Position numbers and translations under genes: made by a program. A stretch of DNA of 28,684 bases from Funneliformis mosseae (taxonomy: Eukaryota > Glomeromycota > Glomeromycetes > Glomerales > Glomeraceae), in contig CAJVPP010000622.1 in the NCBI GenBank assembly GCA_910592005.1, positions 1-28,684 of the forward strand, written 5' to 3'. The first letter of the stretch is position 1, and each line of letters starts with the position of its first letter. Below, in pieces: positions 877 to 14,378 of the stretch. The notes beneath the pieces were generated by a model. The model searched no databases. It worked only from the letters and a program-made list of their open reading frames with translations, and was not told the DNA's origin.

Positions 877-1343
877 CCCAGTTATAGAGTAATCAATTCT
901 TTCAGATACGTGTAATATAGATAAAATAAATTTGCAACATGTTAGAAACTATTACAAAAAAATGTTAGCTCATCTTCGATCACTTTGCCAAGAAATTTTA
1001 GCGAACTTGGTTCGCCCAAATAATGCCACAAAAAAATACCACATATCTGGATTGAATTGCTTAATGCTCGTTATATCCACACTGTTAACTTTATATTTGC
1101 AAAGTACTATACATCTTTTAATTCTTCCAGCGTTTTGTACAATGAGAAATTTTGTAATTTTTGTTCTGATATCTCTTCAATAAAATCCGCTCCACAGTGA
1201 ATAAAAAAAATCTAATTAATGATCATATAAAACACCTCTTAACATACTCTAGACTAGTTAGATTAGTTAGTCAGTACGTCATCTAAAACTATTGCAATTG
1301 TATTGAAATTAAGTTACCTGTGTATCTGATGTAAGGCTGAATT
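877..1343. other. intergenic stretch, no gene seen
   Basis: A plus-strand open frame at 932-1183 has no recognisable composition and is treated as chance. No repeat structure was found. Confidence 0.4.
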
Positions 1344-2168
1344 CTAACTATCTCGCATACTTAGATCTAAAAAGCTCTGAAGATCCTGAGCTAAAATTTG
1401 ATTATTAAATATCCTAATAAGATCAAGAGGCGTTAAAATTTCCACAAAATTCTCTACGTGGATATTTGGATTTAGTTTATTTACAGCTTCTTTACTAACA
1501 TTGTAATATCCTCTTAAATTAAGATATTTTAAATTAAAACACGAACTAACAATCTTTTTAATCATTATATCAGTAATTTTATAAAAGGAAATGTCAAGAT
1601 GTCAGAGCTTTGAAGAGGAATGAATAACATTGTAAATTAATATTTCAGAAAACTCTGTGCAATTAAAAATATTTAGACATTCTAATTTATGACATAAATC
1701 TGCGATTGCAGTTAGATCTTTATTAATTTTCCATTGAAATAAATTACTTAAAACGGATATATTAAGATACTTCAAATTTAGGTATGATTCTACTATTAGC
1801 TTTAGAACTTTTTCAACGAATTCAGACTTCATACTTCCTTCAAAATTTAAATGAATTATATTTTAGAACTTGCATACAATACTTTTGATTTTTTTATTTG
1901 AAAGCCGATAATCTGATATTTTAATATGAGTTAATTTTGAGCTATAAATTGGTTTACGCCCTCCTCTGAATACTATTTTTAAAAATCTTTTTAATTGAGT
2001 TCAATCATCTACACCATTTAACTCAATGTGTTTCTATAGAATAGAAATACCACATCTGTATCACAATCAGCAAACAACTAGAGTGGAGTAAAGAGATTTA
2101 TCTATCAATAAGAAATGTAAAATATGTTCTAGTAATTCCTATATATTAAAAACACTTGTATATACCAT
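1344..2168 (-). pseudogene. F-box/LRR protein, copy A (dead)
   Basis: Degraded copy of an F-box plus leucine-rich-repeat protein, the family that acts as substrate receptor of SCF ubiquitin ligases. Read from the ATG at 2168, an F-box-like N-terminus (LEHILHFLLIDKSLYSTLVV) is followed by 26-residue RNI/AMN1-type repeats with the NLKYLNIS-type pattern, ending in FLDLSMRDS. The frame is continuous with copies B and C, but carries in-frame stops: TGA and TGA in the F-box, TAG, TGA, TAA (1865-1863, where copy C has CAA), a TGA near 1600 and the final TAG. No frameshift is needed to follow it. Comparison with copy C shows the changes are almost all C-to-T or G-to-A. It is the most heavily mutated of the three copies. 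Confidence 0.85.
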
Positions 2169-2252
2169 GCGAAGTGCCTCTGGCTAAATAATGTATATTA
2201 TATGCCATATCTTTAATCAAAAAAATAAATACAAAGCTTTAGACTAACTAGA

Positions 2253-3457
2253 TTATTCAGACTCTGATTCAGTTTCAGAGCTAGAAGATTCTGAATTAGA
2301 ATAGCAGTAATCTTTATCAAAATTTTCAATATGAATATTTGGATTTAGCTAATCTATGGCTTTTTTGCTAATATTTTCACATTCTTCCAAATCTAAAGAT
2401 TTTAAATTGAGACATGAGCGAGCAATTTCTTCGATAGTCTTACTTGTAATATTGCAATAACTAAGATTGAGATGTTGAAGCTTTGGGCAGGAACGTATAA
2501 CATTACAAATTGATGGCTCACTAACAAAATCACAGCAACACAGATCGAGGTATTCTAATTTATGACAAGAATGAGCCAGTGCTTTAGTAACTCTATCAGT
2601 AATATCATTACTATCGATTTCTAAGTGTCTTAAATTCAGAGATCCTTTAATGATGGCTATAATCAATTCATCATTCCACAAAGCCATAGCCCCACTAAAC
2701 TCAAGATACTCTATTTTGAAGTGTTTTCGCATCAAAGTACTAGCATCTTTGACATCCCCCTACTATATAAAATATCAAGATTTCGTAAATTTGAGCATGA
2801 GTTTAAGATGCAACTTATAGATTTATCTGTAATCCAACATGCTTCGGCAAAATGGAACTCTTGCAAATCATGGCAATTATCTGCAATTACAAACAAAGAT
2901 TTATCAGTAATATTTCTGCAGTAGGAAATATTTAGATATTTTAATTTATAGCATAATTCTACAATCGCATATATACCTTTATCAGTTATTTCTTGGGCAT
3001 CCCACAGATTGAGATATCTCAAATTAGGATACGATTCCGCTATTATAAATAGTGATTTATCACCAAAACCTATACTTTCTTTGAAATCTAAATGAATTAT
3101 ATTCAGAAATGTATTCGCAATACTTTTTATTTTTTTATCTGAAAGCGAATAGTAATAAGTAATTTCTAGATGGGTTGTATTCGAAACATTAGCTGACTTA
3201 TTCTTTTCACACATTATTTTTACAAATATTTCCCATTGAGTACGATTTCTCTCACTATAAGTATATCCATCTGGAAAATAGTGCTCATATCTCAGGTCAT
3301 TCCCCTTTAGTTCGATATATTTCCATAAGCTAGGAATAGCATATCTATACTAAAATCAGTTAACAAATAGAGTGGGGTAAAGAGATTTATCTATCGCTAA
3401 AAAATGTAAAATCTGTTCTAGTAGTTCTGGTAAATAAAAGATGCTAGATTGCGTCAT
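2253..3457 (-). pseudogene. F-box/LRR protein, copy B (dead), acidic tail
   Basis: Second copy of the F-box/LRR family, about 400 codons. From the ATG at 3457 the F-box reads YLPELLEQILHFLAIDKS and continues through YAIPSLWKYIELKG, then about ten leucine-rich repeats of the Cys-containing RNI type (for example YLNLWDAQEITDKGIYAI). It is broken by a TGA and a TAG (3352-3350, TGG in copy C) inside the F-box, by one missing G in the G-run at 2756-2760, which shifts the frame, and by a TAG near 2355 where copy C has Gln. Beyond the last stop the frame reads on into a Ser/Glu-rich tail (SNSESSSSETESESE) ending with TAA at 2253; the other copies do not have that tail. Its repeats are less decayed than in copy A. 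Confidence 0.85.
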
Positions 3458-3546
3458 GCGAAGCGTCTCGTGCTAAATATTCTGTTTATATGTTATATCT
3501 TTAAATGAAAAAATAATAAAATACCTTCAAGAAAATCATGCGATCA

Positions 3547-3807
3547 TTACTCTAGGATAAGTCTTTCCAGTATCTCATCTAACGCAAATGCTTGTAAACC
3601 ATCCATAAGAACTTTAAATATATTCTCAGGTGATAATCCTTTTAATAATGCATATTTAAGAAAATTTTTATTATAGTCTAAACTCTTGTTACACTCTTCT
3701 AGCTTCGAATAAAAATTCTTAACTGTATTTTCACCTTGAACCAATAATATAGTACGAAAATTAAAAAGAGTCTTTCTTTTAGACCATTCAAGATCTACCT
3801 CCTTTAC
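3547..3807 (-). pseudogene. retrotransposon gag-like fragment
   Basis: An open stretch of about 86 codons starts after a TAG at 3810-3808. It has the layout of the retrotransposon gag domain: a Trp-containing start (EVDLEWSKRKTLFNF), then ENTVKNFYSKLEECNK and a GLSPENIFKVLMDG motif followed by an amphipathic end. In the gag family this region is the capsid-like part that packages element RNA. There is no nucleocapsid zinc knuckle or polymerase attached, so it is a scrap. It lies between F-box/LRR copies B and C. It may belong to the same family as the gag-protease gene at 4969-5977, but that is inference. Confidence 0.5.
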
Positions 3808-3929
3808 CTATATATTATTTATACTAGCTAATCTATATTTTTTGTCGCACAGGGTATAACCCAACAAAAAATCTTCTGTACTGATCACTGATCCAGGTTA
3901 GTTAAATCGATAAAGTATCACCATTCTGC

Positions 3930-4880
3930 TTAATTGGCTAGTATTTTATCGAAATAATTTCTTAGTGATCGTTTGATAGGGTGCTGGAATATCAGATCTA
4001 AAGTCTGCGTCAAATTCTGATTATTACGCATACTTAGATCTAAAAGTCTCTGAAATCTCTGAGCTAAAATCTCTCTACTAGCAACATTATTCTGTGTAAG
4101 ATGATTTCTAACCATCCCAATGAGATCAGGAGACATTATAATTTTCACAAAATTATCAACATAAATATTCAGATTAAGTGAAACGAGCTGATTTACAGCT
4201 TCTTTGCTAATATTATTACACCCTTCCAAATTGAGATACTTTATGTTAAGACACGAGCCAGCAATTTCTTTGATAGTTATATCGGTAATTTTACAAAAGC
4301 TGAGGTCAAGATGCTGGAGCCTTGGGTAAGAACGAATAACATTACAAATTGATGTTTCAGAAAACTCTGTACAATTAGAGATATTTAGATATTCTAGTTT
4401 GTAGCACAATTATGCAATTGCAGTTAGACCTTTATCAATTTTCTATTGAAATAAATTACTTAAAACAGATATATTAAGATACTTCAAATTTGGGTATGAT
4501 TCTGCTATTAGCTTTAGAACTTTTCCAACAGACTCAGACTTTATACTTCCTTCAAAATCTAAATGAATTATATTTTGGAACCTGCGTACAATACTTTTGA
4601 TTTTTTTATTTGAAAGCCGATAGTCTGATATTTTAATATGAGTTAATTTTGAGCTATAAATTGGTTTACACCCTCCTCCAGATACTATTTTTAAAAATCT
4701 TTTTAATCGAGTTCGATTATTCACACCATTTAGCTCAATGCATTTCTATAGAATAGGAACACTGCATCTGTACCACAATCAGGATACAAATAGGGTAAAA
4801 TACAGTGTCTTATCTATTTCAAGAAAATATAGAATCTGCTCTAATAGTTCTAGTAAATTAAAAATGCTTGAATGTGCCAT
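3930..4880 (-). pseudogene. F-box/LRR protein, copy C (dead)
   Basis: Third and best preserved copy, about 316 codons. From the ATG at 4880 the F-box (LLELLEQILYFLEIDKTLYF) leads through a GGGCKPIYSSKLTHIKISDY linker into six or more leucine-rich repeats ([36 protein letters not shown]) and a C-terminal [20 protein letters not shown] segment. In-frame stops are a TGA in the F-box shared with copies A and B, a TAG shared with copy A, a TAG after LSNLFQ (TGG in copy A) and a TAA before LCYKLEY. No frameshift is seen. Since every loss is a nonsense transition, the protein was probably intact until recently. Confidence 0.85.
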
Positions 4881-4968
4881 GCGACACATTTCTAGCTAAA
4901 TATTCTATTTTATATGTTGTATCTTTAAACAAAAAAATAAAATTAGCCGAGCCTAGTTCACTGATAGA

Positions 4969-5977
4969 TCACTGCTCCGGACTATTGATTGGGTTGGAAA
5001 AATCAGTCATAGCTCAGATCTGACTATCAGATAATGTCGAAATGTAATTTACTTCTTCGAATGAGATCACAAAATTATCATCTAATAATAGTTTTGAATC
5101 ACATATATCTAAAGTTGCACCATTTTCTCAAAACTAAGGTCCTCCTAAAATTAAATCAGATCTCAGCCAATCTGATCCAGGAACTATAAATTTAATAAGT
5201 GTGCTTTTGTGCTTCTCACCATCTTCAAAACCAATATGCAGATTGACTTTTCCTAATGTAGAATAGGATACATCCGGAGTTACAATGCTATTGCTTTTAC
5301 TGTGATTTGTAATTTCTAATTCACTAATATGTTTTTGGCTAATGCAATTTACATCAGCACTTGTATCAATTGATGCCTCAATAGGGATATTTTTTTCGAC
5401 TATACAATTCACAAATACCATTTTATTATGACATATATAATATTCAAATATAAAATTAAAACCTCTATTCAACACCTGATTTTTCAAATCCTTCTGGCTC
5501 AATCATTTCAAACTACTACTCGCTTAACCTTTCTTGGTCGTGCTCTTTTTCGTTACTTATGAGAACAGCCCCTTCTTACCTGGTACCCATGGGACTCCTC
5601 AACTATTTCACTCAAATCAGATTCTTCAGAAGATTCAGACGAATAGGAGAAATCCTTATTCTTTTTTTGACCCTTTTCACTAATCAGCAAGGGAACTATT
5701 TCTTGTATTAAATCAACCATAGTTTCCCTATCTACACATTCATTCAGATCTTCTAATTCGATTTTTAAGGATCTTATGTCTTTTTCAGTCTTTTTACCCT
5801 CTTTTCTAAAGTGTTATATTGGAAATGACAACCTTCGAATTGTTTCTTTAATTCCTCTGTTATACTAAAAACTCTATTACATACTTCTGCATTTAACTGG
5901 GCTATTTATTCTGTATTTGGGATAACTTCCTGCTCACTAGCTATACTATCAGATAAATGCTTTTGATCAGTTACCAT
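4969..5977 (-). pseudogene. gag/aspartic-protease (retropepsin-like) gene, decayed
   Basis: The N-terminal part from the ATG at 5977 is a charged coiled-coil segment (EELKKQFEGCHFQYNTLEKR, then after a frame slip KDIRSLKIELEDLNECVD) and a Ser/Glu-rich linker near 5630. The second part, open at 5502-5134, is a retropepsin-like protease: active-site triad region ASIDTSADVNCIS, hydrophobic strands, and the C-terminal LILGGP motif followed, after a TAG and a TGA, by ENGATLDICDSKLLL, which matches the usual ILGRPWL-x-GA end of gag-protease domains. The TAG and TGA stand where Trp and Arg are expected. A stop separates the two halves and there is no reverse transcriptase, so this is a gag-protease remnant or a domesticated protease that later died. 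Confidence 0.65.
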
Positions 5978-6062: not shown

Positions 6063-7217
6063 TTAGTTTTCATTGAAGAGCATGAATGGGTTTGCTTGAT
6101 CGTAAGGCATTTCACGAGGTCTGTAATTTACTATAGTATACCTCTGCGATAGCGCAGTATTATTTTTAGGACTATGTCGAAGTGCTTGACTAGCGATAGT
6201 ATTAGCTTTCGATAGATTCCTAATCCCACTCGCTACAACTGCAAATACAGCTCCTAAATTACGTAAGGAATTAGGAAGTAATGGCTTACCAGTTTCGAGA
6301 AGAAATTCAGTTTTTTTCAAAAACCTACTTAAGATTCCAGTTCCAGACGTCCCTGGATTTCCTAACTGTTTAGAAGATATTGCTTCCTGAATCCATGTAA
6401 GCAATTGCTTTGCCTGTTTCTCGTTCTTTTTAAGTGATCTAAACACCCGAGAAATATCCTGTTGACCTCAGTTTTTTATGTATCCTGTTATACCTCCATT
6501 AGATATACGCAAATTTTTAATTTCAGCTGGATGGATACAGTGCATAATCATTACATCAGCTAAGGCCTGTTTGTTAGGTGTATTAAATACATCATACGAA
6601 TCCAGTCTCTCCTTAACCGATTCTAACGAGAAGTGGTCCAGATAATGAATTCCTTCATCTTCGCATAATAAACTCTTTTTCTTTTAGATTTTATTCAATA
6701 AAATAGTTATCTCTGGAATCTTCGTAGCTTCGATTATTGCCTCTGAGGCATTAAGCTTTTGCAATTCTGTTTGGAACCTACTGAGACTAGATGTATAGGT
6801 AACTGGATTAGGGGATGTCTCAGTTAATGCTTTAGCTATAACTTTTACTTCTTTTTTACCAAAGCTATCTCGCATAATACGCTGAGCTGTTTCTCTAATA
6901 GTTTCTCTTTCTGGAATAATATCAGATACTTGGCAGACGCTTTTAGCACAGCATATATTCACTTCCACTTCTGCCCCTCCTTCTTTGGGGGTTACTTGAT
7001 TTTTAGTTCGACCAGTTCTTTGAGAAGGTGTCAACGCAAATGCTTGTTCTTTACTAAAGTTATATCCTTTTTGAAGACGATCGTGAGTCTGACGTCTTTT
7101 CTCTCTATCACCTGGTAAGAGCTCAAGTATTTCTAACGCATACTGGCTAAGCTCTTCGAGACTCATTTCATTGGTGAGTTCGTGGTCTGTAACGAACTTG
7201 GTTGTAATAGCAGACAT
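6063..7217 (-). pseudogene. tyrosine-recombinase-like protein, two nonsense codons
   Basis: One frame of 385 codons from the ATG at 7217, interrupted only by TAA at 6686-6684 (codon 178) and TGA at 6470-6468 (codon 250). Residues 1-225 are charged and helical and would be the DNA-binding arm. The rest resembles a tyrosine recombinase catalytic domain: MIMHCIHPAEIKNLRI (codon 229 is His where the first catalytic Arg is expected, a CGT-to-CAT change), NSLRNLGAVFAV (Arg 319), then ALRHSPKNNTALSQRY (His 348, candidate nucleophile Tyr 360). These enzymes cut and rejoin DNA through a phosphotyrosine and drive Crypton-type and virophage-type integration. I recognise the family as recurrent in Rhizophagus-like genomes; the recombinase assignment rests on motif order and is not certain. 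It lies directly downstream of the primase-helicase gene on the same strand. Confidence 0.6.
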
Positions 7218-7220
7218 GTT

Positions 7221-7285
7221 GTGATAAGTAGACTATAGTGGTAATTAGATTAATCTGTGATATTCAGATTATATATTGTGGGATA
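7221..7285. repeat. 19-bp repeat units upstream of the recombinase gene
   Basis: About three degenerate tandem units sit immediately 5' of the recombinase-like start codon, the clearest being TTAGATTAATCTGTGATAT followed by TCAGATTATATATTGTGGG. They match the 19-bp unit of the array at 12421-12705 (consensus TTAGATTATAGTGTGATAT). Position suggests an operator or a recombinase-binding site; this is inference. Confidence 0.5.
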
Positions 7286-7498
7286 AAGTTCAATTCGAAA
7301 AAATTATTCTGATAATTCACTACTTCATAGTCAATTGGCAAAAAAGAATATTATAACTAATTGCGAGTTCTCTATAAGGCCACGAGTTCTGGCCAGAATA
7401 TCTTTTATATATATTTGAAAATTACGGGTAGATAGGATATGCGAAAAAAAATAATAATAATCCTTCTCAAAATAAATCTTTGATTGAGAGAGGGCTCT

Positions 7499-10400
7499 TT
7501 ACCAAAGCATACCATTCTTCTGGAGTATGCTTATTGTTTTTTTCCATTTCTCATCGGTATTAAGCCACAAGATTATGACTCTGTTATCCTTGAGCCTGCG
7601 ACAGATAATTTCTTCCCCTATCAATCTTTCACGTACCGTCATATCCATATCTTCTTTAGGATCATCCTTCATCTCTATAGCCTAATTACACATTCGTGAA
7701 TCCATTTCCATCCTATCCTAGAATGTGGGTGAATCGTGTTTATCTTTCTTTGTGATGGTTACGAACTTTTCAGGATCTTCACCGAACTCGACTGCCCTTT
7801 TTCTGAGACGCTCTTCTCGCTGTTATCTAGCTAGAAGTATAGCAGACAATACTTGATTGATAGGCTTAGAAGAATCGCACTCGTCACTTATTTCTTTTAG
7901 AGGCATATCCACCACTTTGCTAATAGGCTCAATAGATTCGGGAAGCTTGCTAGTCTCAAGTTCATCTATTACTAGCTCAGGTGTTTAGAAGTCTCAGATG
8001 TGCCAGATAATGAAGCAACTAGAGCACGTGTATCTTCTACTACATAGTCAGAAAGAGTCTGAGCCAATTCGTCCTGTTTATCCGCCTTCTTATCCCTTAG
8101 AGGGAGTTTCTTTTCTGGTTGAGGTGAGGCTATTTTTGAGGAAGTGATTTCTGGCACATTGAATATGGGTATGTCTGTAGCCTCATTTTCGGATAAGTTG
8201 GGTTGTGGTGTATCAGAAAATTCTTCTATATCGTCTAAGCCAAATTCATAGAGCTTGGTTACGATCTTGGAGCAGTCAAAAATATATTGCCATTCCCTTC
8301 TTCCACTATTTGCCCTTTTACGTTCAATATTAATCTGTGAGAATTTTTTGCCAAAGATGTTGTTAGAAAATGGCTTTTCACTATTCCCTCCACACCATTC
8401 AACATAGTTCTGGTATAATGATATACAACTTGGCTTGGCTACTTGATCCTCATTCCATGAAAAAATATAATCAATTATAAATCGAATGGGATTAGGAAGC
8501 TGATCTCGCATGGTTTCTATCTTCATTTTAGTTGAAGGAATCTTTCGTGGCTTCTATCTCGAAAGATTAAGACTAAGCAAATATGACATAAAAGATCTAG
8601 GCGTATCGGAATGCTCAAGAATTTCTCCAAACTGATCAAAATATGTGAAATTATTTTTACAGCGAGGGGAGATATCTAAACATACAATATGTTCATCTTC
8701 CAACTCCACTCGAATTGGAGTATCGTGATTACTTAGAATCATAAATCTGGAAAAATAATTGCATTCCTGTGATTCGAGATCTTTACACTCAATTGAAACA
8801 TAGTCTTCTGTAATAAGAGATTTCAAGTGATCATTCGCCTTATGCCATTCCCCACTAGCCATTCCTGTTTTATTCATAATAATAAGTTTTTGTACTTAAA
8901 TGGGACTATTAAATCGTCCAAGAATCTTCCCTAGATCAGAGATCGAGTAAACAAGCTCTGGACTGAATAAGCTTTTTCAGATAAAATCAGTAATAATATT
9001 TTTTTCACAACATGGTGGAGAACGCAATACAAGAATAGTTTCAGGAATTGTACTTAGATACTGAATCAGGAATGCGAACCATTTCAGAACATATTCAGAA
9101 AGTTTTTTATCCTCATTACACCAGATATTTTCTATACGCCAGACGATCGGATTCACTAGATCATAATTAATATGGGAAGTCGGCTTTACTTTGAATCCTA
9201 AGAAGAGATTGAAGAATTCAGTTTTTGGTGAAATAGCATTTGAAGGATATAGTAGGAAATCGATATCTGCATAAGCAATCAAACTAGTATTGAATGCATT
9301 CTCCAGTAAAGATTGTAATTTTATAGCTTCCCTACCTAACTCGATGATATTAATGGTTAATTTACCGATATCTAACTTGAAGCCCATATCGAAGTATAGG
9401 TCACCATCAGATTTTTTATGCTTAAGAATCCATGTTTTCAAATTCTTTTGAATGCAGGCAATTGTTACTTGGATTGCATTATATACTTCATTTCGTGAAA
9501 ATCTTTTCTTAGAAATACACATGGATATTAAATTCCACCTATAGATGCCTGCCGAAACCTCCTCAAAATAATTTCGTCATACCCTTTTCTATGTTTTTAA
9601 TATAGTTTTGACAGTTTCGGCTTTTGTCGTATCAAATGGATTTCGTCGTATCCCTTATTATGATTTTAATATAGTTTCGTCTAAGTTTCGACTGTTATTA
9701 AGGGGTTTCGTCCCTCATCTATAATTCCACCATACAAAATAATCGTTAGGATTTGAAATTCTGGATTGTTCTAGTTTTACAGGACTTTAAAGCTTTTGTT
9801 CTCGATCCAAGGCAGTTTCGCTAATAGTAAGTTTTTTTGAAGGTTTTCTGAAGCTGGGTTCCCTATCATTGTTTGCCTAGTAGCAGAAAAAGCTATAGGA
9901 TTTTTTATTTCGAATAATATATGCATTATCACTATCATATTCTCGGTCATATATTGGACAGTGTGATGAAAAGATGCGCGATAGTGGAAATTTATCAGGA
10001 AAATTTTCAAATGAATATGAGAGACTATATCCTTCGATTCTAGCTTCTTGAAGTAATGTCTCTACCAATTCAAATTCAGCTTGAGTGATTTCACTATTCG
10101 TATCATCAAATCTTTGGACTTTTAGCTCTGAAATATCTAAAAGAGAACTTTTTACGACTTCTGATTCATCACTGGGTAGACGGATCATAAAGTCAAAGAT
10201 GCTTTCATCTTTTGGACAAATAGCTTTTTTACACGAACACGTTCTCCAGTCTTTTCGTCAGACTTGAGGGATCCAAGCATCCTAAGGAAAAAGACCTTTT
10301 ATTTGCGATATTATCAATAATATTATTTCCTTGTAGAGCTATCAGAAGTTTCTTACGAACAAGCTCAGTAAAAACTGCAACCTGAGCAATATTTGGAAGT

Positions 10401-10831
10401 CTCATGCCAGTAGTAGAAACATGGAGAGATATTTTTTTTGCATCACTACTACTGGCAATAACTATAGTTTTAGGATTCCACTTCAGGAATATCTTCAAAC
10501 ATGTCTTTCTAAAAGCAAGAATAAGTGAATCTAGTACCTCTTTGTGTGATAGCTTAGGTTCAATAGTATCAAGCACTTCTTGTGATAAATCAAAATCTAT
10601 AATAGGCTGAAATGGCTCATTTCCATCAATGAATTCATGTAAGGAATGGCCTTCACGATCTAAAAGTATTGCTTCTATCTCATCTGCATTATCTGCGCCT
10701 AGAAAATGCCTTAGCCTAACACTATCATCTCAAATTTTATATAGAGATGCACCTATATCAGAGGCTTTGAACTCACAATAGTAGGGGGTGGGCGCGTCGA
10801 AGAATTCTGAAAACTCGGATTATTCAGTCAT
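7499..10831 (-). pseudogene. NrS-1-type primase-polymerase/D5-like helicase, decayed
   Basis: A replication protein of about 1,050 codons. Domains in order: archaeo-eukaryotic primase core with motif I QPIIDFDLS (Asp79/Asp81) and motif II KKISLHVS (Ser135, His137); a zinc-ribbon remnant CPIYDREYDSDNAY..SFFCY, with one Cys turned to Tyr; a helicase domain with Walker A near 9012-8998 degraded to SPPCCEKN and Walker B-like KLIIMNKTG; a conserved RFMILSNHDTPIRVE arginine-finger region; a C-terminal winged-helix-like part (SLYQNYVEWCGGNSEKPFSN) and an acidic tail. Breaks: stops at 10822, 10732, 9879, 9789, 8979, 8898, 8556 and three in the tail; one-base losses near 10290, 10226 and 7980; and a MITE at 9540-9723. 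The start at 10831 is the first ATG before the domain. It diverges from the gene at 10939 across about 107 bp. The family primes and extends DNA and unwinds it; this copy cannot function. Confidence 0.8.
9540..9723. mobile_element. 184-bp MITE inserted in the primase-helicase gene
   Basis: Imperfect terminal inverted repeats start TATAGATG at both ends (left TATAGATGCCTGCCGAAACC, right read inward TATAGATGAGGGACGAAACC). The flanks are a perfect 8-bp direct repeat ATTCCACC at 9532-9539 and 9724-9731, the target-site duplication. Inside, a block of about 75 bp starting ATTTCGTC is present twice, diverged. Removing the element and one ATTCCACC joins the primase-helicase reading frame on both sides without a gap (…DYFVWWN then LISMCISKK…). 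Eight-base duplications are made by hAT, Merlin, P and KDZ-type transposases; the superfamily cannot be settled from the ends alone. It has no coding capacity. Confidence 0.85.
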
Positions 10832-10938
10832 TTTTTCAGATATATTATCAAAGTATACCAAAACTTAAGGTATATTAATCGTAAAAAAAAAGTTCAAAAT
10901 GAAATTAATTCCCCAAGATTATTAATTGATCTATACAA

Positions 10939-11163
10939 ATGGGAGGCGAAAAAAAGCAGACACCCTGGTATTTTTATTACTGTCTATATATTCTTAGGAC
11001 TGGAGAAGTATGTAATCAGAGATGTTATGATCCAAATGGATGTAAAGTTCATCGGAATTCTAGGCAGGTTCCTTATAAGGAATACAGTGAGCTGACAAGA
11101 GGCAAATATGACTATTGTGATATACATGCAAAAAAATATAGATCAAGGAAACATTATCATTGA
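10939..11163 (+). CDS. small Cys/His-rich protein, possible zinc binder
   Basis: Intact 74-residue ORF starting at the first ATG. Cysteines and histidines are spaced like a small zinc-binding domain: Cys15, Cys25, Cys29, Cys35, His38 (pattern CLYILRTGEVCNQRC then GCKVH) and a second pair Cys60-x2-His63 (CDIH). The N-terminus has an aromatic cluster (WYFYYC) and the C-terminus is basic (KKYRSRKHYH). The C-YIL-x-G-x-C pattern recalls short Cys-rich repeats seen in giant-virus and Glomeromycotina proteins, but I cannot name it. It is transcribed away from the primase-helicase gene from a shared region of about 107 bp, and the iteron-like repeats begin 50 bp past its stop. It is the only gene in the left half with no disabling mutation. 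It could be a DNA-binding accessory or regulator of the dead element. Confidence 0.6.
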   Translation: MGGEKKQTPWYFYYCLYILRTGEVCNQRCYDPNGCKVHRNSRQVPYKEYSELTRGKYDYCDIHAKKYRSRKHYH

Positions 11164-11214
11164 AAAAAACTTGTAAAAATCCAGAATATATCCCAGTAAA
11201 CTGTTTTAGAAATT

Positions 11215-11604
11215 CTGTCCTAGTTTCTGTCCTAGTTATCAGAATTTTCTAGAATGGATAAAATATAGCTAGATGGTAATTTTAAGACGAATGAAAGGGA
11301 AAGAAATAGTCTGTCCTAGTTGTTCTGGTTGTCCTAGTAAATTTTGGATTTCTTTTCTTTTTTTTTACCTATAGATATACTGGTATATAGTATACATATA
11401 GCATACATATATTATACATATACCATAGATGGATTACGATTTTTTTTAAATTTTTAAAATTTTTATTTTTACTAGAACAACTAGGACAACTAGGACAAGT
11501 ATAAAAAGAACAAGTTAAAACAAAGAAAGAAGCTTTTCTTTCATATCAGAATCTGTCCTAGTTCCCGTTCTAGTTTCTAAAATAACCAGAACAACTAGAA
11601 CAGA
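11215..11604. repeat. iteron-like array of CTGTCCTAGTT units in both orientations
   Basis: About ten units of CTGTCCTAGTT or close variants. Forward units lie at 11215-11225, 11227-11237, 11311-11321 and 11328-11338; reverse units run head to tail at 11471-11499 (ACTAGAACAACTAGGACAAC and on); forward units again at 11553-11563 and 11567-11575; reverse at 11585-11604. Forward and reverse groups face each other, so each pair can form a hairpin. The centre (11380-11440) is a TATACATA-rich A+T stretch. The layout, near a primase gene, resembles an iteron origin or a transposon end with subterminal repeats. Confidence 0.65.
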
Positions 11605-12420
11605 TCATGTCTGTACGAAAAAGAGTATAAAAGATCAGAATAAATATAGAAATATAAGAGATACCCAATGAGTGCCAAATTTATTTACTAGCACTATTCC
11701 ATAATTTCGGCTAAAATTGAAACACAATAACTTGGCATTCAAGGTGATACTTAGGGTAGTCTTCTATGTAATCATTATATAAAATATTAGCAGAAGCCTA
11801 ATAATCCCAAGAAAGATAACAAATGTATCACTAGTTCTATCACTAGTTCTGAATACTAACTTAAGACACTAGTGCTATATTTATTTTTTATAAATTCATT
11901 ATCACATATAATGACATATAGTATCTTCCTAATCGAGGTAATGAGTCAAGCTCTTGAGAAAATCCATTAACATTGTTAATGCTTTTTATATCCTGTGATA
12001 ATTCAGAATTTTTTTACCATATTTCAACATTCTGGCCGACACTATTCTGTATTTTTTTCCTTTTTATTACGCTACTTTGGCACCTAGAAAGGTAACTAAA
12101 TAGACGCAAAAGGTAAGTACTTTAATATAGAATTTGACATCCAATCAGACGCAGAGGATCAGTATCATCAATATATAACTTAAATTACAAGTGGAGTAGA
12201 AACAGGAAGAAAAGAGAGGTAGTTAGATTAAAGCGTGGGTAGTATTTAGATTATAACGTGGTAACAAAATCATACATATGAGAAAAAATACAAATATCAA
12301 GAAAAGTATAAATATATAACTAGAATGAGAACAGAGGTAATATCAAAATAAAAGGGTAGATTAAAGAGTGGTAATCAGGTTATGTATTCAGATTAAAACG
12401 TGATGATCAAGTTGTAGTCA
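11605..12420. other. non-coding A+T-rich stretch with scattered 19-bp units
   Basis: No protein-like frame. There is a short tandem repeat of TATCACTAGTTC near 11827-11850. Diverged members of the 19-bp family (TTAGATTATAACGTGGTA-like) appear from about 12225, ahead of the regular array. Confidence 0.45.
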
Positions 12421-12705
12421 TTAGATTATAGCATGATATTTAGGTTATAGTGTAATATTTAGATTTTAGTATAATATTTAGATTATAGTGTGATATTTAG
12501 ATTATAGTGTGATATCTAGATTATAACGTGATATTCAGACTATAGCATAGTATTTAGATTATAGCATAATATTTAGGTTATAGTGTGATATTTAAATTTT
12601 AGTGTAACATTTAGATTATAGTGTAACATTTAGATTATAGTGTGATATCTAGATTATAACGTGATATTCAGACTATAGCATAATATTTAGATTATAGCGT
12701 GGTAC
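12421..12705. repeat. tandem array of fifteen 19-bp units
   Basis: Exactly fifteen 19-bp units with consensus TTAGATTATAGTGTGATAT and no spacers, 285 bp in all. Variants recur in order: the pair CTAGATTATAACGTGATAT / TCAGACTATAGCATAATAT starts at 12516 and again at 12649, 133 bp (seven units) apart, so the array grew by duplication of multi-unit blocks. The last unit ends AGCGTGGTAC, which is the arm sequence of the palindrome that follows. Confidence 0.85.
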
Positions 12706-12723
12706 TATAACCTAGTCTAAGTG

Positions 12724-12764
12724 GGATACCACGCTATAATATAATATATTATAGCGTGGTATCC
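12724..12764. repeat. perfect 41-bp palindrome
   Basis: Two exact 19-bp inverted arms, GGATACCACGCTATAATAT and its complement, around a 3-bp centre. The arm contains the same word as the units of the adjacent array (ATTATAGCGTGGTA), and a further arm copy lies at about 12692-12705. It could be a cruciform site, two abutting ends of a small element, or a protein-binding site. Confidence 0.85.
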
Positions 12765-14378
12765 TACTGAAGTGAAGCAAAAATATAATAAAGATGAAAT
12801 AGTATATTTTATAATATATATATATAATTTTAAAGTGTATTAACTTACTATTCTGATATTTAACCTTTTTTCTTATATGTATTTAAAATATTAATAAATT
12901 ATAAGATGTAATTTAATTAAAGATTTTTAAAGTAAATATATTAATTTATTTTTTCAAATAAATCAGATTATCTTTAATAAATTTTAGAAATATAAAAATA
13001 TTATACTTTTAGTAATATTTTAAAGTAACATTATATAAAAAAATAGGAAATTGTACTTTAGAATATTATTGATACTATATAATTTAAAATAAAATAGGTA
13101 ATAAAAGGTAAGAAATACAATTTTTTTTTAATATATCATGCTATTTTAATAATTAATACAATATTTAAAATAGTAAAGCATTGTTAACAAAAGATTAAAA
13201 AATTGAACTTAAATAAGAAAAATAATTGATATCATAAAGATTAAAAAACAGATAAAAATTATCAAATAACTTATAACATAAGGATTATAAACAATTGATA
13301 ATATAAAGATTATAATAAATCTAAAAATGATTAAAAATAAAAGAAAATAGCACAAGTATATTATAAGTATTGTGGTATTAAATTATAAAGTAATACTAAT
13401 AATATTACAAATATATAAATATAAATAGCAAAAAGAATTAAAGAAATAGCTAAAATTTTAAAAAGGATTATTAATAATAAAATAATAAGAATATAAGAAG
13501 ATATATATATGTTTAATAATATATATTTTTGATATTCTAAGAATTTGCTATCTTAGCTATATATTCTAGCTATATATCTTAACCTGTTCTATTATATCTT
13601 AAATGTTCTATTTGTCTTATTTATATCCTATCAATATTCTATCAATGTCTCATCAGTATCTTATAATAACACTGCATGTGTTTTATATTATGATATCATA
13701 ATATTTAGATTATGAAGTTACAAATAGATTATAATAGTAGTTTAAGATTTATAATTGATCTTAATAATCTGCAAATTTCATAATATATTTAGATTATAAT
13801 ATGATAATCATAATTTAATCTAAGTAGTATACTATTTATTATATTTATTATCTTTAAAAGCATTAGTTAATTTTTTTTTTATTTACTTAAAAAACATCAT
13901 AAAATTTATTATAAAAGTATTAATTTTTAATAAAAATAATTATAATTATTCAGATAAATTTTTAAGTAAAATTATTTAATAAATAAATTTTTATTATTTT
14001 TTTATAAAAGCAAATCAAAAGAAAATTTATATTTACAAACTTTTTGAGATGGTAGTTTTTTATTTTTTAATTATATAATAAAATCAATTATTTATAAACA
14101 TATTTAACCATAATATTATTATTAAAAAAAAAAAAAAAAAAACTTATCTATTATAGGTTTATTATAGTCGGATTAACATGATAAATTTTCAGGAGAAGTT
14201 CAATAAACCTGTTTTAAAATATAAATATTGATGAACCATGATGTCATTGTACCTTTGAATTACATAACTTTAATGTTGAGAATCAGAGAAGGTTGGTTAA
14301 TAACTTTTTTTTTTCTGTCAGTTTAATAATAAACATCATTATCATAATAAACCATCAACCACAAGTTTAATTATAAAT
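12765..14378. other. A+T desert between repeat half and housekeeping block
   Basis: Very A+T-rich with poly-A and poly-T runs (an A18 run near 14125) and no coding signal. A few loose matches to the 19-bp unit (TTTAGATTATAATATGATA) occur at about 13690-13830. The last 150 bp should hold the promoter of the HPt gene. Confidence 0.5.

Follow-up and report, generated by a model that had tools for sequence, protein, structure and literature searches.

The genome of the arbuscular mycorrhizal fungus Funneliformis mosseae contains a repeated DNA element, and the stretch analysed here (contig CAJVPP010000622.1 of assembly GCA_910592005.1, 28,684 nucleotides, termed the window) holds one dead copy of it, probably a self-moving element of arbuscular mycorrhizal fungi. 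The window is the whole of one contig in an 82.0 Mb assembly of 4154 contigs. Read from right to left, its minus strand carries a primase-helicase, a recombinase-like gene, a coiled-coil/retropepsin-like gene and the remains of F-box/leucine-rich-repeat (LRR) genes; on the plus strand a small Cys/His open reading frame (ORF) diverges from the primase and is followed by inverted repeats, a 19-bp array and a terminal palindrome that closes the element on the right at 12768. The primase-helicase is an optional module of the family rather than its defining part, since the replicative gene is exchangeable. We lean towards reading the family as modular, capsidless, integrating replicons with a tyrosine-recombinase-like enzyme that are mobile elements of these fungi, on the basis of the kept gene order, the many copies, the precise right end, the leader motif and the alternative genes found before the recombinase. 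No left boundary was found, and that these elements integrate and replicate themselves is an inference.

Copies, gene order and the common right end

Searches of the assembly returned 40 matches to the helicase (43 candidates), 40 to the recombinase (99 candidates), 88 to the right end, 55 to the retropepsin region and 69 to the LRR region, counts in which one copy may give several matches and for which scores were available for the best candidates only. Matches fall on 131 contigs and, when one hit is counted per contig and kind, 48 of these carry at least two kinds. The order LRR, retropepsin, recombinase, helicase, right end is kept in all 48, the window included, most of which sample just two or three of these parts, and strand is kept in 47, the exception being contig C2411, where the right end is inverted. 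A head-to-head dimer in C2411 was rejected, as the interval from the palindrome to the inverted-repeat region contains neither a motif hit nor a match of at least 80 bp. The window copy is read as dead because its recombinase-like gene (6063–7217, minus strand) has two stops within its one frame and a histidine at the position of the first catalytic arginine, its helicase is fragmented, and a repeat bordered by a 9-bp direct repeat has been inserted at 9540–9731. The original prediction of a dead copy of an element multiplied in the genome is thus borne out by the stops and fragmentation here and the many copies elsewhere. Its expectation of one order between shared boundaries holds for the order and for the right boundary; no left boundary was found.

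The terminal palindrome, 49 bp here (12720–12768) and 49–50 bp in the family, was delimited by comparison of copies. Of the right ends printed, 14 with that of the window, 13 appear by eye to be clean, with unlike flanks straight after the palindrome, and the fourteenth (L068) is interrupted within it; weighing against a wholly sharp edge, gapped BLAST alignments of L067, L069 and L070 continue 17–46 bp past 12768 into AT-rich flank. In 13 palindromes 94.6% of the cells pair, compared with 31–47% when the partner is slid, and the arms covary: two-sided changes affect 18 cells, where shuffling gives 7.0 on average, and seven pairs, where it gives 4.5. The original prediction had ended the element, set at 6063–12764, slightly short of this edge, and had overlooked the flanking retropepsin-like and F-box/LRR genes as well as the insertion in the helicase.

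Inward of the palindrome lies the 19-bp direct-repeat array (12246–12705, plus strand), with a core of about 15 units at 12421–12705 (TRF score 316), whose unit resembles one palindrome arm. The half-site pattern has 78 matches in the genome, frequently paired on opposite strands at a distance of about 30 bp, against three for a reversed control. The same motif recurs, as had been claimed, in 19-bp repeats of the recombinase leader (7224–7290), where the array matrix matches 7245–7263 just before the start of the gene. Scored with that matrix, the 130 bp before the start in 29 other loci have a median of 8.4 against −5.0 for random pieces of those loci; the leader motif exceeds the 95% background level in 20 of the 29 and falls below it in nine. 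In the printed leaders three tandem 19-bp units often lie, by eye, downstream of a TATA-like box and ahead of the ATG; the TATA-like start of the leader (7396–7447, minus strand) is common to the copies by the same reading, with the module junction just past it. One protein may bind the leader and right-end motifs alike.

These features bear on a rival explanation in which the family is a passive repeat: its genes were copied in segmental duplications or transported by some other transposon, and movement is not due to the recombinase-like gene. Mobility is indeed deduced, the left end is not established, LRR genes occur in other contexts too and those copies that were inspected closely are for the most part broken, all of which would suit such a repeat. 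Against it stand the common right end with unlike flanks, the covarying palindrome and the presence of one motif both at the leader and at the end, which together tie the recombinase gene to the terminus, and we consider passive spread improbable.

Past the first right end a decayed older one is found (13310–13870, plus strand), with 134 columns aligned at 67% to the right end and a motif score of 17.5 that was reached by none of 200 resampled sequences; contig C2630 has a similar tandem arrangement. In L068 (contig C88, about 46116–46243) the palindrome is enlarged, with a total span of 128 bp across its half-sites, and the sequence added inside seems by eye to be palindromic as well. In L067 (contig C502) a right end lies after position 2100, beside or inside an LRR gene.

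Exchange of the gene before the recombinase

The replicative gene of this family is an exchangeable module. In tblastn searches with four proteins over 30 recombinase loci, the window included, the next gene upstream of the recombinase is the helicase in 14, an unrelated 174-amino acid ORF (ORF X) in 13, a third protein in two and none of these in one; as the loci extend only about 1.5 kb upstream, the count concerns the nearest gene. Helicase and ORF X do not occur together in any of the 30. The predicted tandem arrangement of primase-helicase and recombinase-like gene on one strand (about 7499–10830 and 6063–7217, minus) was found in the window and is not peculiar to it, as the helicase adjoins the recombinase in 13 of the 29 other loci and a single gene model of Rhizophagus diaphanus (P0081) reads as a D5 C-terminus fused to the recombinase. 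The further supposition that the primase-helicase is a fixed part of the element falls, another gene occupying its position in 15 of the 30 loci.

On a tree of recombinase DNA, which gene conversion could blur, the type label changes 11 times against a shuffled mean of 12.3, and 277 of 1000 shuffles gave as few changes, so that module type and recombinase lineage are unrelated at this resolution. Between helicase-type and ORF-X-type loci (182 pairs) BLAST similarity reaches a median of 156 bp upstream of the recombinase ATG and never more than about 300 bp, compared with a median extension of 757 bp in pairs of the same type (169 pairs; 900 bp compared). The ends of the mixed-pair alignments are scattered over 0–300 bp upstream of the ATG. 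An exchange at the 19-bp leader repeats themselves was not supported, the break lying upstream of the TATA-like box in six printed pairs.

ORF X has 249 homologues, of which 120 were listed, and 74 matches in the genome. It is annotated consecutively with the recombinase in Rhizophagus irregularis (OCT59_024178/024179) and Glomus cerebriforme (C1645_818995/818994), and eight listed contig sizes are common to its homologues and those of the recombinase. One contig of the ORF-X type (C3891) also has right-end similarity. The third upstream gene variant, present in L038 (1–546) and L039, matched no Pfam family and gave one weak PHROG match of unknown function (0.022).

In the window the primase-polymerase/SF3 helicase (AEP plus D5/NrS-1-type) is broken and was recognized by profile and homologue matches. 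It matches DUF5906 at 1.3e-9, with AEP_C962R (E 0.061) and Pox_D5 (0.009) below the cut-off. A longer relative, P0133, matches DUF5906 at 2.4e-19, Pox_D5 at 2.6e-6 and the NrS-1 primase structure 6k9c at 2.7e-7, and this sequence similarity identifies an SF3/D5-type helicase domain in the family. An AEP primase domain may be present, to which the AEP_C962R match at E 0.061, below the cut-off, and the IDFD and SLH motifs seen by eye in P0122 point; the Walker A motif reads GKN in P0133 and P0122, and helicase homologues carry the source name ‘highly derived D5-like helicase-primase’. Four contig sizes, including 7223 and 4450 bases, are common to the listed homologues of recombinase and helicase, and a 386-amino acid recombinase and a 796-amino acid primase-helicase, both listed on contigs of 7223 bases, seem to form a full-length pair. 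In copies of the helicase type the primase-helicase would amplify the element in an extrachromosomal state, with the inverted repeats next to the Cys/His ORF as a possible starting point; in those with ORF X or the third protein, another aid would yield extrachromosomal element DNA in place of replication.

Sputnik-like virophages and polinton-like viruses possess exchangeable replication genes and combine a tyrosine integrase with a primase-helicase, and polinton-like viruses in particular swap their replication genes. The family might on these grounds be seen as an endogenised DNA virus or virophage-like agent whose capsid was lost or never carried in these copies, a view also favoured by the AEP plus D5-type helicase and by a match of ORF X to 2C_adapt (E 0.0034, below the cut-off), a domain that occurs in giant-virus proteins. 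Neither query found a relative in two scans of the viral-contig collection, one of which was confined to close relatives. Genes for a capsid, an ATPase or PolB were not noticed in the window, where no search by name was made; neither capsid protein nor packaging ATPase was present among the ten window ORFs given to Pfam, nor was a complete copy seen, the left end being missing. We regard a viral origin of this kind as distinctly improbable. The likeness to Sputnik-like virophages and polinton-like viruses extends to the pairing of primase-helicase with tyrosine integrase, whereas the present family differs in consisting of fungal chromosomal repeats with no capsid or packaging genes noticed and no relative in the two scans. 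With NrS-1-type primase-polymerases, C962R and D5 helicase-primases the resemblance is that of a homologous helicase part, one component only.

Nature of the recombinase-like protein

In an alignment of 50 recombinase sequences, chosen for a near-complete C-terminal half, an R-K-R-H-Y motif is seen, with the first arginine in 40 sequences, lysine in all 50, the second arginine in 42, histidine in 49 and tyrosine in 50; it comes from one alignment and is not proof. The catalytic spacings are 19, 71, 29 and 12, and the box-II histidine position is serine in 44 of the 50 and arginine in six. The eight departures from the second arginine are four cysteines and four histidines, each of which could have arisen by a single CpG transition in the arginine codon. 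One homologue (P0005) carries the source name ‘integrase: PROVISIONAL’. In our judgement from sequence the protein is likely to be a tyrosine recombinase, an assignment that depends on the motif because the fold is unconfirmed and no integrase family appeared among the matches listed. The original prediction of such an identity is therefore upheld as far as the motif goes and left without backing from fold models or structural matches.

From the anatomy of the element, the recombinase-like protein would bind the 19-bp half-sites, act on the palindromic end and join element DNA to the chromosome; through the leader copies of the motif it may repress its own gene. F-box/LRR genes would ride along as cargo.

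Several results weigh against reading the family as integrating replicons with such an enzyme. Predicted structures of the recombinase are of low confidence (mean predicted local distance difference test scores of 56.9 and 43.9), no significant structural match was obtained in the PDB (best Foldseek E 2.2) and the VIA rows were at noise level. No integrase family model matched P0001, and with a set of 46 members at E 1 integrase was absent among the families listed (25 of 35 in Pfam, 25 of 39 in PHROG and 15 of 15 in NCBIfam). A catalytic-domain profile did not separate eight Escherichia coli recombinases from 55 other E. coli proteins, its top row being the non-recombinase ttcA. Neither an extrachromosomal form nor an empty site was seen in this analysis, and the copies compared established neither a left terminus nor a target-site footprint. 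In the palindrome, further standard pair types numbered 12 against 12.9 in shuffles, which is no excess. Differences between copies fell at codon position 3 in 39% of cases for the recombinase, not above the highest of three non-coding controls read in an arbitrary frame (29%, 34% and 40%), and in 32% for the Cys/His ORF. The corresponding shares are 38% for the retropepsin gene, 39% for LRR, 37–41% for AEP segments and 40–47% for helicase segments, two of them at 45–47%; as these two alone stand out clearly, past coding constraint is weakly supported.

Two further searches were also negative: PF00589 gave no match above the cut-off in the genome, its three weak matches including no copy of the element family, and a PDB sequence search with the 46-member profile returned three rows (E 0.18–0.98) with no recombinase among them.

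Telomere resolvases such as TelN, TelK, TelA and ResT act by recombinase chemistry on palindromic targets of about 50 bp, and the terminal palindrome here is of similar size. The element could accordingly be a hairpin-ended linear replicon with an enzyme of the telomere-resolvase type, its palindrome being a replicated-telomere junction or a hairpin end that was opened and filled in. In a broader form, a capsidless eukaryotic replicon would have its recombinase-like enzyme turn the terminal palindrome of about 50 bp into hairpin ends, or use the palindrome as a site folded from a single strand; with its freely exchanged replication modules and with F-box/LRR genes as cargo, this replicon of mycorrhizal fungi would represent a new superfamily of mobile elements that replicate themselves. 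We hold both forms to be unlikely. The structural matches do not rise above noise and unrelated folds occur among them, the half-site in the window is confined to the right end, the inverted right end of C2411 shows no head-to-head junction, and ordinary recombinases also use inverted half-sites. The present system also differs from that of the telomere resolvases, to which its protein shows no sequence or significant structural match: one palindrome was seen per copy, and the host is eukaryotic.

Relation to known elements and flanking genes

An integrating replicon with a recombinase and a replicase is a kind of system already known, of which the present element is probably a variant; the finding is more interesting than first described because the replicative gene is exchangeable, and the family makes the swapping of replication modules in a eukaryotic mobile element open to testing. 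No description of the element was found in the open literature, with most subscription papers, preprints and Repbase outside this coverage. Starship elements of the Pezizomycotina are recombinase-driven carriers of cargo, and the likeness lies in that carriage; size and host lineage set them apart by description. Cryptons carry essentially only a recombinase. They resemble the present family in having a tyrosine-recombinase-like gene in fungi with, as far as seen, no reverse transcriptase, but here replication, retropepsin-like, Cys/His and F-box/LRR genes and a terminal palindrome are added, and the recombinase, with its conserved neighbours, is not the sole gene of the element. Consensi named ‘Crypton-A’ are given for R. 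irregularis in PMC8647823 and might include the present family.

Named homologues of the recombinase and helicase all come from arbuscular mycorrhizal fungi (Rhizophagus, Gigaspora, Dentiscutata, Glomus, Cetraspora, Diversispora, Entrophospora, Funneliformis and Scutellospora), among 330 recombinase homologues, 120 of them listed, and 102 helicase homologues, all listed, with many rows nameless; relatives of the recombinase itself occur in Rhizophagus, Gigaspora, Dentiscutata, Glomus and Cetraspora. PMC11075540 puts the repetitive share of the R. irregularis genome at about 50% and states that two thirds of its transposable elements were unclassified before the curation reported there, which added 636 sequences of new families, possibly this one among them. 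As its recombinase escapes the integrase profile, the present family could explain part of the repeats that remain unclassified. It may also have driven the copying of F-box/LRR genes in these obligate plant symbionts.

Downstream of the recombinase lies the broken coiled-coil/retropepsin-like gene (about 5045–5905, minus strand; coiled coil by eye), in which 5134–5502 matches gag-asp_proteas at 0.024, below the cut-off. Relatives were found by tblastn in 15 of the 29 other recombinase loci, and in Gigaspora rosea the recombinase and an Asp_protease match (7.5e-5; at 23.3 bits under the 26-bit cut-off) are parts of one gene model (P0050). In L037 (2706–3737, contig C2479) the recombinase and the retropepsin-like gene are separated by an oppositely oriented gene that resembles HNH/NUMOD4 homing endonucleases (HNH_3 2.2e-19). 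Further downstream are the F-box/LRR gene remains (3826–4945, minus strand), with LRR_4 at 4.1e-8 in the ORF at 3930–4409, followed beyond a junction at 3825|3826 by tandem LRR units of uncertain membership (1340–3825, minus strand; LRR_6 8.2e-12 in 2349–2735); 1340–2229 matches 3800–4980 of the window at 79%. Counting matches of at least 80 bp, 20 of the 29 other recombinase loci have LRR sequence no further than 1.5 kb downstream of that gene (three of them only to 3532–3826), as against none of 29 helicase loci and one of 19 right-end loci. The close copies in C142, C2479 and C2411 retain the LRR start, and the C2479 relative has an F-box-like match (PF12937, 3.3e-6). The F-box/LRR genes are likely cargo, though not proven to be so, since LRR genes also occur elsewhere.

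Three candidates for the left end were rejected. Position 436 is a junction with another repeat, contigs C3898 and C157 sharing about 690 bp past it; 3825|3826 is a local junction past which four other copies share about 80 bp; and 5045 seems, by reading, the mere end of coding similarity. Positions 1–435 belong to another repeat family, with matches in many contigs ending at about 435–443, that abuts at 436, and 436–1400 is common to a few contigs only (C3898, C157 and C2322), where a coiled-coil gene comes next. C3898 is a copy of the ORF-X type, yet has the left part of the window.

On the other side of the helicase, the predicted small Cys/His ORF diverging from the primase was found at 10942–11163 (plus strand), with tblastn relatives in many loci, several of them with stops; it is related (blastp 7e-9) to a 185-amino acid Cys/His protein of the ORF-X copies. 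The repeats said to follow it are inverted repeats of the TGTCCTAGTTGTTCTGG type (I2, I3, I13 and I18) at 11205–11615, with repeats located at 11302–11612, a region that aligned at 70–90% in seven right-end loci (L062, L074, L075 and L077–L080) and is a possible origin or promoter. The repeat of 0.19 kb inserted in the helicase (9540–9731) has ends resembling terminal inverted repeats and the 9-bp direct repeat AATTCCACC. Alignments of other copies skip from about 9539 to 9723, that of L003 with a 9-bp overlap, and L068 has the insert at 89%; from the length of the target site it is probably a miniature inverted-repeat transposable element derived from a Mutator-like element. The window contains no tRNA and no Rfam match at gathering scores. 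Past about 14.4 kb it holds host-like genes, those at 14.4–19.6 kb appearing by eye to be YPD1-like phosphotransfer, TVP38-like and UFD2-like.
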